Shown here: piece by piece, positions 24,331 to 29,370 of the stretch | How positions within the stretch are numbered: the first letter of the stretch is position 1 | Layout of the letters: every line of letters begins with the position of its first letter | Source of the DNA: Candidatus Omnitrophota bacterium | GTDB lineage: Bacteria; Omnitrophota; Gorgyraeia; JAGLLT01 | Assembly: GCA_023140385.1 (NCBI GenBank) | Contig: JAGLLT010000044.1 | Coordinates: 1 to 40,238 of the forward strand | Reading direction: 5' to 3' | DNA length: 40,238 nt | Notes under the pieces: generated by a model | Database searches by the model: none | What the model was told of the DNA's origin: nothing | The model's input: only the letters and a program-made list of their open reading frames with translations | Program-made: the position numbers and the translations under genes

Positions 24331-24359
24331 CGCGTCTTATTTTTCCTAAATAGTTTTTC

Positions 24360-24509
24360 TTAAGTAGATTGTGTCAAGTGCGCATGGTGCCGCGCCATAG
24401 CAATCTGTTCTCCAATGCAAAGATTTTGATATTCCTCATCAAACCTCTCGCGGAATTCTTTATCTTCCATTAGCTTGTCCATATAAGTTTTAGCTTTTCT
24501 CTTTTTCAT
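24360..24509 (-). pseudogene. Truncated HigA/XRE-type antitoxin N-terminus (49 aa)
   Basis: MKKRKAKTYMDKLMEDKEFRERFDEEYQNLCIGEQIAMARHHAHLTQST*; stops where the HTH would begin. Confidence 0.55.
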
Positions 24510-24515
24510 AGACAG

Positions 24516-24638
24516 TCACTTATAATCAAGATCGCTTTCTTCAAGCCTCTTGCCCTCCTCCTCGTAGTGTCTTTTAAATTCTTTGTCTTTAAGTTCCCCC
24601 TTTAAGACATCTTTAAAATCTAAAAGCTTCCTAATCAC
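24516..24638 (-). pseudogene. Second truncated antitoxin-like N-terminus (40 aa, GTG start with GGAGG SD)
   Basis: VIRKLLDFKDVLKGELKDKEFKRHYEEEGKRLEESDLDYK*; resembles the N-terminal region of antitoxins paired with Gp49-like toxins. Confidence 0.45.
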
Positions 24639-24671
24639 TACAAACACCTCCCACAGTTCAAATTTACCCTG

Positions 24672-24795
24672 CTAATACCGCAGAATAAAGTCTTCCATAT
24701 TTTTCTTCGCCTGTTCAATCTCCCTCTCGGGCAATTCTTTCCGTCTTCGGTGTTTGTGAAATTTTGCAAAGTAAAATTTGGGTGAGTGCCATTAA
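24672..24795 (-). pseudogene. C-terminal remnant of a Gp49/HigB-like toxin
   Basis: ...FAKFHKHRRRKELPEREIEQAKKNMEDFILRY*; no start codon; resembles the KKTQKTPxREIExAxxR C-terminus of PF05973-type toxins. Upstream boundary approximate. Confidence 0.45.
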
Positions 24796-24840
24796 GCACG
24801 AACTTTTTATGCTATATTATGTGAAGTGATGCAAAAAAAA

Positions 24841-25263
24841 TCAGTCAACTATTTTTAATATCCTATAATTTGAAAATTTCAGCTTGGTGTTCTTGTACTC
24901 TAAGTCCCTCCTCATTTCTAATACCAACTCACCAAGCATATTTTTGGCAGTATTTTGATCATCAGGGTGTCCTTGTTCATTAGAATGGATAAACTCATCT
25001 AAAAGTTTATTAGCTTTAAGAACAACGCTATCAGAAGCGTAGAGCCAAGATTCTGATAATTCATTTAGAAAAAGCTGTTTATCCTTTTTATTGGCAGTAC
25101 CTTCCATGAAACCTTTCAAATAACGCAAAAGGTTTTGGTATTTTTCTCTCTTCCTTTCAAAAATTCTAGTTTCCCGCTCAGCCCTTTTCTCTAACCAGCT
25201 CTTGATAAAATAGCCACTAACACCACCAAAAATTAAGTAAATCAGGTTGCCAATGTTTTCCAT
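24841..25263 (-). CDS. Small single-TM coiled-coil protein (cassette ORF)
   Basis: MENIGNLIYLIFGGVSGYFIKSWLEKRAERETRIFERKREKYQ...ELVLEMRRDLEYKN; N-terminal TM, charged helical body. Confidence 0.7.
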   Translation of the reverse strand: MENIGNLIYLIFGGVSGYFIKSWLEKRAERETRIFERKREKYQNLLRYLKGFMEGTANKKDKQLFLNELSESWLYASDSVVLKANKLLDEFIHSNEQGHPDDQNTAKNMLGELVLEMRRDLEYKNTKLKFSNYRILKIVD

Positions 25264-25305
25264 ATTTTACCCCATTTTGAGCAGATAATTTTTTTGCAAC
25301 ATTTC

Positions 25306-25385
25306 ATATAACGAAATGCAAAATTGCGAAGCGAAGCAATTTAGATACGCGACAATAAGAGCAAATCGCATATTCGCTGTTATAC
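25306..25385 (-). mobile_element. attC-like recombination site 1
   Basis: Minus: GTATAAC AGCGAATATGCGA ... AATTTTGCATTTC GTTATAT; R''/R' 7-mers complementary 6/7; GAAtATGCgA vs GAAATGCaA implies one extrahelical base; central AAATTGC-TTCGCTTC-GCAATTT hairpin; 80 bp. Confidence 0.62.
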
Positions 25386-25426
25386 AACCATAGCCCACCA
25401 TCTTTGAAACATACATCGCACTTCTT

Positions 25427-26095
25427 TTATTCTATATTACTTTTTCCAAGGTTGCATTTTTGGCACAGTGTTTGAAGATTTTCAAGTATAGTTTCTCCAC
25501 CCTTACTCCAAGGTTTTATATGGTCAACATGCAGTTCCACATTTTTATCTTTTGCAGGACTCACACCACATTGTTTACATGAAAAATTATCTCTTTTGAG
25601 GACCTTAAATCGTAAACGCAAAGATGGATCTCTATTTATTTTCTTTATACTATCCGAAATTTGAGGTGTTTCTATGTTTTGAATATCAGTTCCATTTGCA
25701 TATTTAACAAAAGATAGTAGTGTATATGACCAAGATTTGAACCGCCGGTTATATGGACTTTGAGAAATTTTTGAGGGCTTAAAATTCAAATCTTTTCGAA
25801 TAGGTTGTTTACCTTTATATTGCCAAATGTTTAATATGTTTTCAAATAATTCTTCGTCTGAATAATTAAAAATATTTCCTGGTTTCAAACCAACTTTTGA
25901 TAGTGCTTCTCTCCATGTCCCAAAACGTCTAGAGAAACTTGTAACATCATATTTTCCATATTCTAAATAAAGTTTTTGAGATAGAATATCTGTACCAAGT
26001 TTTTCTGCAACCTTTTTTAAATCATATAGCAACTTATCTGATTCAATTGGTGTATTTTTCGGTGGTGTGTATTCAAAATTATTCATATTTACCAC
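25427..26095 (-). CDS. HNH endonuclease with N-terminal HNH-associated repeats (cassette ORF)
   Basis: FKVLKRDNFSCKQCGVSPAKDKNVELHVDHIKPWSKGGETILENLQTLCQKCNLGKSN; repeats TSFSRRFGTWREALSKVGL and PYNRRFKSWSYTLLSFVKY. Confidence 0.9.
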   Translation of the reverse strand: MVNMNNFEYTPPKNTPIESDKLLYDLKKVAEKLGTDILSQKLYLEYGKYDVTSFSRRFGTWREALSKVGLKPGNIFNYSDEELFENILNIWQYKGKQPIRKDLNFKPSKISQSPYNRRFKSWSYTLLSFVKYANGTDIQNIETPQISDSIKKINRDPSLRLRFKVLKRDNFSCKQCGVSPAKDKNVELHVDHIKPWSKGGETILENLQTLCQKCNLGKSNIE

Positions 26096-26115
26096 TATTA
26101 TTTAGACAGTATGTT

Positions 26116-26207
26116 ATATAACATTCCCAGCATATGCAATGTGCGACCGAAGGGAGCATATCTCGAAGGGCAAGGGCAAAGCCCGTAGCGCATATGCTGT
26201 GTTATAC
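26116..26207 (-). mobile_element. attC-like recombination site 2
   Basis: Minus: GTATAAC ACAGCATATGC GC ... TT GCATATGCTG GGAAT GTTATAT; 10-bp L''/L' pairing inside complementary R''/R' boxes; 92 bp. Confidence 0.62.
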
Positions 26208-26235
26208 GCTGGTGCTGACTCTTCGTTATGCTCTC

Positions 26236-26679
26236 CTATTGTTTCCGGCCAACCAGATGCACTTTAGGAAAGAATCTATTTATATTTTTCCCCTTCCCAA
26301 AGAGATCTTGTCTCATTTCTTTTACAAGTTCAGTAAGTAAATCATCGTGTTTCCTTGTCCATTCTTCAGAATCTCGTGGAATAACAACATTCTCCATCTT
26401 TACAAAGTTATGAAACTCCATTAGTTTACTAACTACATTAGCATTTGCCATAAGAAGTAACGAGTTAAATCCTTCTGAAAGACTTTTTTGAGCATCATCA
26501 TCTTTATTATCAATAGCTACATCACTTAGTGCTTTGATAAATAATCTGTAAAATTCTTCTTTTAGCCTACACTCTTCCCGCTTTAATTGGTGCTTTTTAG
26601 TAAAATAATATGATAATGAAGCCGTGATTGCTGAAGCCAGTAATCCAATACTTGCTACGATAATTTCCGATAAATCCAT
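26236..26679 (-). CDS. Small single-TM coiled-coil protein (cassette ORF), resembling the product of 24841-25263
   Basis: MDLSEIIVASIGLLASAITASLSYYFTKKHQLKREECRLKEEFYRLF...ELVKEMRQDLFGKG; N-terminal TM and ELVxEMRxDL motif. Confidence 0.7.
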   Translation of the reverse strand: MDLSEIIVASIGLLASAITASLSYYFTKKHQLKREECRLKEEFYRLFIKALSDVAIDNKDDDAQKSLSEGFNSLLLMANANVVSKLMEFHNFVKMENVVIPRDSEEWTRKHDDLLTELVKEMRQDLFGKGKNINRFFPKVHLVGRKQ

Positions 26680-26707
26680 TTTTCACCCTATTTTTGCTGG
26701 CACTTGC

Positions 26708-26803
26708 GTATAACTTAAAATAACCGAACTGCTTCGTTCATGCTTCCAAATCGGCACTTTTTGCGAAGCAATTCCTCTATTCCTAACTATATCTAAGTTT
26801 AGT
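26708..26803 (-). mobile_element. Possible degenerate attC-like site 3
   Basis: Minus: ACTAAAC TTAGATATAG ... CGGTTATTTTAA GTTATAC; partial complementarity. A further GTTATAC box lies at 26891-26897. Confidence 0.35.
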
Positions 26804-26946
26804 CTTACCTTTCCGCTAACATCTCAGCCGCTTCCTTTATATCTTCTTGAAATATCCACTTTCGCTAAAAACTTCGACTGATAGGTATTCGTATAACATC
26901 TTAATATTCTCGTCACATCTACATATCTTAGATTTGTTTTGCGAGC

Positions 26947-27291
26947 TTAGCTTAAATCTTCCTTTATTTTTAAAATCTTAGCTTTTAAATCAACCATATC
27001 TTCTTTGACAACTTTCAGGGTTCGTTTTAGATTTACTCCAAAGTATTCATGGATAAGGATGTCCCGCATACCCGCAATTTGCTTCCATGGTACCCCTGGA
27101 TATTGATCTCGGAACTCATGGGGAATGTTTTTGACAGCCTCGCCAATAATTTCTAAGCGTCTTAAAATAGCATCCTGAATTAGAGTATTGTTATAAAAAT
27201 CGTCCTCGTTATTAAATCCCTTCATATACTCTTCTATCTTTACAATGGCCTCTAATATATCTTCAATATACACTCGTACATCTCTTTTCAT
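26947..27291 (-). CDS. HepT-like HEPN-domain toxin (DUF86)
   Basis: [12 protein letters not shown] (RX4H...Y HEPN motif); pairs with upstream MNT gene. Confidence 0.9.
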
Positions 27292-27575
27292 AAAAGCACC
27301 ACCTGTTCTTTGAGAATCCTTTCCTTAAGAAGGGGTTTGAGGGTGTCGTATTCTACTAAATCTACTTTCCGTCCCAGGGCCTCTTCGATTTTTTGTTTAA
27401 GCCCTACAAAACCAAGCAGGCTGATATCTGCCCTGATATCTATTAAGATATCAACATCACTCTCCTCTTTCATCTCACCCCGAACACAAGAGCCAAAAAG
27501 GGCTACTTTTTTAACTTCATAATCTTGCAGAATAGGAAGAATCTTTTGTTTTATTCCTTCAATATTTTCCGTCAT
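27288..27575 (-). CDS. MntA-like minimal nucleotidyltransferase antitoxin
   Basis: [27 protein letters not shown] (GSxxRGexxxxSDxDl). Confidence 0.92.
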
Positions 27576-29158
27576 AGCTTTTTTCCGTCCTTCAACAATT
27601 TATATTCAATACTATCAACCAGAGCTTGCCAGCTGGCTTCGATTATATTTCCTGAAACGCCTACTGTTGACCAGAGCTCCTCTTCGTCCTGCGATTGGAT
27701 AAGAACTCTTACTTTGGCGGCTGTGCCTGCTTTTTGATCGAGTACCCTTACCTTGAAATCTGCCAGGTGCATCTTCTTCAGGCTTGGATAAAAATCCTCT
27801 AGAGCTTTTCTTAAAGCGTTATCCAGGGCATTAATCGGGCCGTCGCCTTCGGCAGCCGTGTGCTCCATAATGCCGTTTACCTTAAGCTTAATAGTCGCCT
27901 CAGAGTAGAGTTGGGGCATCTTTGTTTTAGGGTCAATCCTTTTTTCATTGATAACCCGAAAGCCCTCTAATTCAAAAAACTTCTTGGACTTTTTCATCAT
28001 CCGCTTCATCAACAGTTCAAAAGAGGCTTCGCCGGCTTCAAAATGATAGCCTTCATTCTCCATATCCTGAAGCTGTTCTAATATCTTTTTTGTCTGGGGA
28101 GTATCTTTATCTAAATCAATATTAAGCTCCTTAGCCTTCATCAGAATACTACTCCTGCCGGCCCACTCAGAAATTAAAAATCTTCTTTTATTGCCCACCT
28201 CTTCAGGCTTTATGTGTTCGTAGGATGTCGGGTTTTTCATAACGGCATTAACATGCACACCTCCCTTATGGGCAAAGGCGCTCAAGCCGACGTAGGGTTG
28301 ATTGCCGCTCTGCTTCATATTACTTACTTCGCTTACGTAATGAGAAACCTCGGTTAACTCCTTTAATTTTTTGGGCGATAGGCAGTTAAGGCCTAACTTC
28401 AACTGCAATGTCGGAATAATCACACACAGATCGGCATTACCACATCGCTCCCCGCAGCCGTTAATCGTCCCCTGAACCTGAGTACAGCCGGCCTCAACAG
28501 CCGCGACAGAATTAGCCGCCGCCATTCCGATATCATTGTGTGTATGAATGCCTAAATTTATTTTTATCTCTTTTTTTACGGCTTTGACAATAGCAGAAAT
28601 TTCAGAGGTCAAACTCCCGCCGTTAGTATCACATAAAATAATCCCCTCTGCTCCGGCATCCTGAGCGGCCGTGAGAACCTTAAGCGCGTAGCCCGCGTTG
28701 TCCTTGTAACCATCAAAAAAGTGTTCCGCGTCAAAAAATACCTTCCGGCCCTTTTTCCTAAGATACCTGATACTTTCATCAACCATCTTCAGGTTCTCTT
28801 CCAGCGAAACTTTAAGAATGTCTTTCACCTGCAGAACCCAACTTTTTCCGAAAACGGTAATGTACTCCGTACCCGCTTTCAATAAAGCCTGGAGATTTTT
28901 ATCCTTATGGGCCTTGATATGACGGCGTCTGGTCGAGCCAAAAGCTACCAGCTTCGTCTTACCTAATTTTAAAGCCCCCGCTGTTTTAAAAAAAGTTAAG
29001 TCTTTCGGATTTGAGCCCGGCCACCCGCCTTCAACAAAGTGCACCCCTAACTCAGCCAGCTTTTTAACAATCTGCACCTTATCCCCGACAGAATAACTAA
29101 CCCCTTCCGCCTGAGCGCCGTCTCTTAAAGTCGTATCATATACTTTAATATGGGTCAT
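27572..29158 (-). CDS. cimA: Citramalate synthase
   Basis: VYDTTLRDGAQAEGVSYSVGDKVQIVKKLAELGVHFVEGGWPGSNPKD...; HTHNDIGMAAANS; LeuA-type C-terminal domain. Start MTHIKVYD at 29158 preferred over track start 29185. Confidence 0.93.
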   Translation of the reverse strand: MTHIKVYDTTLRDGAQAEGVSYSVGDKVQIVKKLAELGVHFVEGGWPGSNPKDLTFFKTAGALKLGKTKLVAFGSTRRRHIKAHKDKNLQALLKAGTEYITVFGKSWVLQVKDILKVSLEENLKMVDESIRYLRKKGRKVFFDAEHFFDGYKDNAGYALKVLTAAQDAGAEGIILCDTNGGSLTSEISAIVKAVKKEIKINLGIHTHNDIGMAAANSVAAVEAGCTQVQGTINGCGERCGNADLCVIIPTLQLKLGLNCLSPKKLKELTEVSHYVSEVSNMKQSGNQPYVGLSAFAHKGGVHVNAVMKNPTSYEHIKPEEVGNKRRFLISEWAGRSSILMKAKELNIDLDKDTPQTKKILEQLQDMENEGYHFEAGEASFELLMKRMMKKSKKFFELEGFRVINEKRIDPKTKMPQLYSEATIKLKVNGIMEHTAAEGDGPINALDNALRKALEDFYPSLKKMHLADFKVRVLDQKAGTAAKVRVLIQSQDEEELWSTVGVSGNIIEASWQALVDSIEYKLLKDGKKL

Positions 29159-29211
29159 AATCACTCCCCCTATTCGTATTGTCAAAAGTATTTACCCTTT
29201 ATACGTTTAAA

Positions 29212-29370
29212 AAACTCTAAACAAACTCTAAATCCTAATATCTAAATCCTAAATAATTTCAAAATTCTAATGTTCAAATGTTATAAACCTTAAGTGTCTT
29301 TGTTTTGGTCATTTGTATTTTGGACATTTGGATTTGTTTAGTATTTAGTGCTTAGTATTTAGGATTTCCC
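29212..29370. repeat. 7-nt-phased imperfect inverted repeat between lysC and cimA
   Basis: Left arm ACTCTAA ATCCTAA TATCTAA ATCCTAA ATAATTT CAAAATT CTAATGT TCAAATG; right arm CATTTGTATTTTGGACATTTGGATTTGTTTAGTATTTAGTGCTTAGTATTTAGGATT; arms imperfectly complementary. Confidence 0.75.

Follow-up and report, generated by a model that had tools for sequence, protein, structure and literature searches.

Between the genes valS and cimA of Candidatus Omnitrophota bacterium (assembly GCA_023140385.1, contig JAGLLT010000044.1) lies a block of DNA that we judge, on balance, to be a small foreign gene cassette array without an integrase, integron-like but of a non-canonical type; the array is probably a relict. 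The window, i.e. the whole stretch of DNA analysed, spans 40,238 nucleotides, and the block, which fills the 3.2-kb gap from cimA (27572-29185) to the valS boundary (24330), contains a hepT/mntA-like pair, what is left of a tyrosine recombinase gene, the three units and some apparently eroded fragments, as follows.

24331..27575 (minus strand), inserted block between valS and cimA, defined by the cimA-valS adjacency in relatives, in which the block is missing
24816..25312 (minus), unit 1, with the P0001 gene; own-end repeat 21/26 with mutated tips (end = ATAAT), no palindrome after the unit
24841..25263 (minus), P0001, 140 aa, a distant paralogue of P0003 (29%)
25306..25385 (minus), site 1 palindrome, boxes GTATAAC / GTTATAT, 5.9 bits with the attC model
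25379..26122 (minus), unit 2, with the HNH gene; weak own-end repeat of about 10 nt
25427..26095 (minus), P0002, HNH endonuclease with homing-endonuclease-associated repeats (PF18780, PF01844)
26116..26207 (minus), site 2 palindrome, boxes GTATAAC / GTTATAT, 6-6.7 bits with the attC model
26201..26714 (minus), unit 3, with the P0003 gene; terminal inverted repeats with the position-11 A/G signature (GTTATACGCAAGTGC / GTTATACGCTGGTGC)
26201..26219 (minus), unit 3 end repeat, containing the R''-like box GTATAAC
26236..26679 (minus), P0003, 147 aa, with an N-terminal membrane segment and relatives in L007 and Leptospira
26696..26714 (minus), unit 3 start repeat, from the own-end comparison
26805..26852 (minus), tyrosine recombinase gene relic (3' end), 83% over 48 bp against G032 (G032:C17)
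26947-27291 and 27288-27575 (minus), hepT-like gene and mntA-like nucleotidyltransferase gene (ORF table and domain matches)

Because cimA and valS are adjacent in 22 of the 22 relatives with both genes in the DNA examined, including the same-family genomes G002 and G003, the block is a lineage-specific insertion. The whole block is missing in the relatives compared at cimA/valS, and the array DNA was not found in 98 other genomes, three short matches excepted. At one edge of the block the mntA-like gene, the second of its pair, shares 4 nt with the end of cimA; the 48-bp recombinase relic sits directly upstream of the array, and the stretch from unit 1 to valS (24340-24815) consists of small coding fragments, apparently eroded. 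The initial annotation of this DNA, made from the letters alone, had described the three co-oriented minus-strand ORFs as they appear in the ORF table, together with the boxes and sites 1 and 2, and had overlooked the own-end repeats, the P0001 unit's end at 24816, the recombinase relic and the cimA/valS insertion.

The boxes GTATAAC and GTTATAT bounding sites 1 and 2 are complementary, the one ending in AAC and the other beginning with GTT as in the R'' and R' boxes of attC, and the inner stems proposed for both sites are real (arm shuffling gave p values of 0.0005-0.003 at site 1 and 0.0015-0.003 at site 2). A single bulged T interrupts the R''-L'' arm of site 1, and site 2 has an unbroken 10-bp stem with box-to-stem spacers of 1 versus 5 nt. 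The single-strand folds of the palindromes gave modest z-scores (-1.1 to -2.6), no T-run follows the stems of either site, Rfam returned no match and the two sites had no matches among the plasmids. The third, weaker palindrome that had been suggested at 26708-26803 was dropped (p 0.89-0.96 by arm shuffling), leaving only its R'-like box GTTATAC at 26708-26714, where the P0003 unit starts. A further isolated GTTATAC box at 26891-26897 (minus strand) is present as described, with no palindrome found there. The initial annotation had suggested looking for more boxed palindromes elsewhere in the genome; across its full 1.5 Mb the pattern GTATAACN{50,80}GTTATA has a single further occurrence, which is self-complementary. 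Outside this genome, an 80% copy of site 2 lies 3' of an unrelated gene in G028, a member of another family, with the similarity stopping within the R''-like core.

The window sites had been proposed as attC sites of an integrase-less integron cassette array (CALIN). Support from a covariance model was sought using one built from 20 attC sites beside true IntI genes of relatives in the same taxonomic class (R1), rather than the published IntegronFinder model. In IntI-bearing loci R1 recovered 67 sites with E below 0.001, the 20 training sites among them, and in the positive control, three enterobacterial plasmids, it scored class 1 attC sites at 22-49 bits, the dfrA1 site being missed. Contig C6 of the genome of the window yielded four attC sites at 21-50 bits, and further sites lay in other parts of that genome. 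The window palindromes reached 5.9-6.7 bits with filters off, and several random places score higher; these scores are noise. The spacers of L007 and Leptospira, described below, were likewise not recognised. The low scores had been anticipated and ascribed to T/A at inner box positions; since genuine attC sites of the class share such boxes (ATATAAC/CTATAAC and GTTATAT/GTTATAG), the box sequence is not their cause; the window sites rather seem to lack the remaining attC anatomy. Scanning the window de novo with an attC grammar was rejected as non-discriminating, its best generic box-and-stem match being an AT-rich imperfect palindrome at 29216-29342, between cimA and the next gene.

Integrons are frequent in the class, whose genomes measure about 1-2.5 Mb (relatives G001-G275). 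Of 384 class genomes, 21 have a true IntI, G001 of the same genus among them, and R1-supported attC sites were found in 18 of 59 relatives. The search for intI in the genome of the window itself (93% complete), which the initial annotation had recommended, gave none above the TIGR02249 cut-off. Contig C6 (L098 2555-5227) carries a real CALIN with four canonical attC sites. Since this array adjoins a segment with 89.7% identity to the one immediately downstream of intI in G001, a resident integron of this genome seems, by sequence comparison, to have lost its integrase.

The ends of the units were compared by setting each unit start, read from GTTA, against its own end, taken up to TAAC and reverse-complemented. 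Own-end matches reach far past the 7-nt core, the two ends of a unit matching over about 16-26 bp. Across nine units (three from the window, two from L007 and four from Leptospira) a mean of 10.3 of the 15 bases at positions 8-22 agreed, against 4.9 for mismatched pairs, whilst 50 canonical cassettes from integrons of the class gave 4.9 versus 4.2 for mismatched pairs and six class 1 cassettes gave 6.7. For the window units the own-end repeats have a joint p of 5e-5. Beyond the GTTA head the repeats differ between units, matching within a unit only. Own-end complementarity per se was rejected as a unique mark of these units since class 1 cassettes have a shorter form of it (8-13 nt).

A more specific mark lies at position 11. 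In unit 3 the two ends pair as a terminal inverted repeat with GTTATACGC at its head and a mismatch at position 11 (A in the start, G in the end). Position 11 is mismatched in 14 of 15 units, with A in the start and G in the reverse-complemented end in 13. Part of this unit set had served to notice the signature before a scan of 0.99 Mb for its exact form, in which the independent hits numbered one in the window, one in L007, ten on Leptospira plasmids (three lineages) and zero in both the class loci and the class 1 plasmids, two rows among the class loci being copies of the window itself. Control letter pairs and positions gave zero hits, the mirror image excepted, and in 12/12 signature hits the gene tables place a gene inside the unit and in the same sense. 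The window match is unit 3 (26201-26714), the sole strict pass among the window units; unit 1 has the signature pattern, its tips being mutated, and unit 2 is a weak case.

L007 is a locus from an unrelated bacterium with a genome of roughly 1 Mb. It holds the sole relative of P0003 obtained from the scan of genome contigs (57%), flanked by a site of the window type and beside a NUDIX unit whose ends carry the signature. Within the collection of plasmids, P0003 and P0001 have relatives in Leptospira only (48% and 36%, respectively), and the best match of P0002 is again in Leptospira. P0003 itself gave no match in Pfam, PHROG or PADLOC, it had no strong relative in 245 other class genomes (one weak match, 24%, E 8e-4), and neither P0001 nor P0003 was found in viral contigs. 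The Leptospira P0001 homologue lies in a signature unit beside mazEF, with palindromic spacers between. Some Leptospira plasmids carry, and others lack, one unit together with a copy of the spacer, a difference that may reflect homologous recombination between the spacers. Homologues of P0002 and distant relatives of P0003 are also found outside such arrays, and the P0002 homologues, which in the class sit outside such arrays, were discarded as weak evidence of a cassette pool. An integrase-less array fits these data because the P0003 gene recurs in the cassette-like array of L007 and a copy of site 2 follows an unrelated gene in G028.

Integrase-less cassette arrays are usually read as orphaned integrons, and the nearest alternative to our reading is that this is a true CALIN of ordinary cassettes moved by IntI, with attC sites decayed or of an unusual lineage. 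Its genus has IntI, its genome has a real CALIN on C6, site 1 has a bulged base, and much of the anatomy is shared: small co-oriented genes, a palindrome after each (unit 1 excepted) at the gene 3' end, xxxxAAC / GTTxxxx boxes, a unit start complementary to its own end (over 8-13 nt in class 1 cassettes), no adjacent integrase and foreign cargo including toxin-antitoxin genes. We nevertheless regard this explanation as rather unlikely, given that a model able to detect class 1 attC sites of another phylum at 22-49 bits, and those of C6 at 21-50, yields about 6 bits here and also misses the spacers of L007 and Leptospira, that the 50 canonical cassettes are without long own-end repeats, that box-to-stem spacers here are short and uneven, and that own-end complementarity extends over 16-26 bp rather than 7-13 with a fixed mismatch at position 11. 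The earlier proposal of a CALIN fits the integrase-less cassette-array anatomy, with foreign co-oriented units and matched ends, and is not supported in the strict sense of attC sites recognised by IntI; the units are real cassettes, not demonstrably attC cassettes, and it is on structure, as judged by the covariance model, that CALIN membership fails. A similar division applies to the Vibrio-type superintegron repeats (VCRs), which are near-copies of one another: Leptospira spacers between unrelated genes resemble them in being near-copies of each other, but no IntI is known beside these spacers, and their sequence and fold are unmatched by the attC model.

Terminal inverted repeats around passenger genes with no transposase inside are also a feature of mobile insertion cassettes and MITE-borne genes, non-autonomous transposons mobilised by a transposase in trans. 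Such elements are a most improbable source of the block, for a shared end sequence is lacking, the repeats being unlike between units past the GTTA head and matching within a unit only, and the units stand in tandem with palindromes between them. An ordinary accessory island of toxin-antitoxin and other small genes, with terminator-like or chance palindromes, would account for the cargo, which is typical of islands, for the modest fold z-scores and for the P0002 homologues of the class outside such arrays. Against it stand the repeated core boxes, the own-end repeats with their position-specific signature, the structure shared with L007 and Leptospira and the stems without a T-run after them; the signature scan, in which control signatures gave no hits, disfavours it for unit 3, and we consider it improbable overall.

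For the non-canonical array that we favour, a mode of working similar to that of integron cassettes is plausible by analogy. Each unit comprises one gene, or a few, between imperfect inverted repeats (GTTA...TAAC), with palindromic spacers separating the units, and would move as a circle. In such a circle the joined own ends would lengthen the spacer palindrome to give a single long hairpin, which a tyrosine recombinase acting in trans could recognise as single-stranded DNA, much as IntI does attC. The position-11 pair could mark the strand, because its pairing is G.T for the bottom strand and A.C for the top. Folding predictions agree in part: on the bottom strand the joined-end hairpin of unit 3 reaches -29.2 kcal/mol versus -18.9 for the linear array, that of the L007 NUDIX unit -36.0 versus -15.9, and the bottom strand is favoured for both, whilst unit 2 shows no hairpin gain on joining its own ends. 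attC sites recombine from the folded bottom strand (PMC2727003); the proposed hairpin would be alike in this respect and differ in the anatomy of its ends. The genome of L007 has no IntI above the cut-off. Its recombinase nearest to IntI is a 271-aa tyrosine recombinase (G384:C21; L138 1222-2037) that fits the IntI profile except at 180-235; it is a possible candidate for the enzyme, is unlinked to the units in the assembly, and lies on a short contig devoid of signature units.

We tentatively suggest that these units may belong to a separate, non-integron cassette system, one with variable self-complementary ends, a fixed strand-marking mismatch, a long hairpin and a recombinase other than IntI (Xer-like, or IntI-like without the extra helix), moving toxin-antitoxin and small membrane-protein genes among Leptospira, the bacterium with the roughly 1-Mb genome and the class of the window. 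The evidence points to a little-described family of gene shuffling; no description of such cassettes was found in the literature covered, with preprints and most subscription papers outside its scope. A cassette type missed by an attC model, with genes common to bacteria only very distantly related, would add to the routes by which genes are known to be exchanged, and its end signature is simple and can be scanned for in any genome. It could also account for the toxin-antitoxin-rich arrays on plasmids of Leptospira, a genus without reported integrons; among spirochaetes, integrons were reported for Treponema only (PMC3607928). On one plasmid of the genus Leptospira, pLiSL16 of Leptospira weilii (L127), the genes at about 0.9-12.4 kb occur again, inverted, at about 30.4-41.9 kb, and those at about 14.5-21.5 kb occur again in direct orientation at about 43-50 kb.
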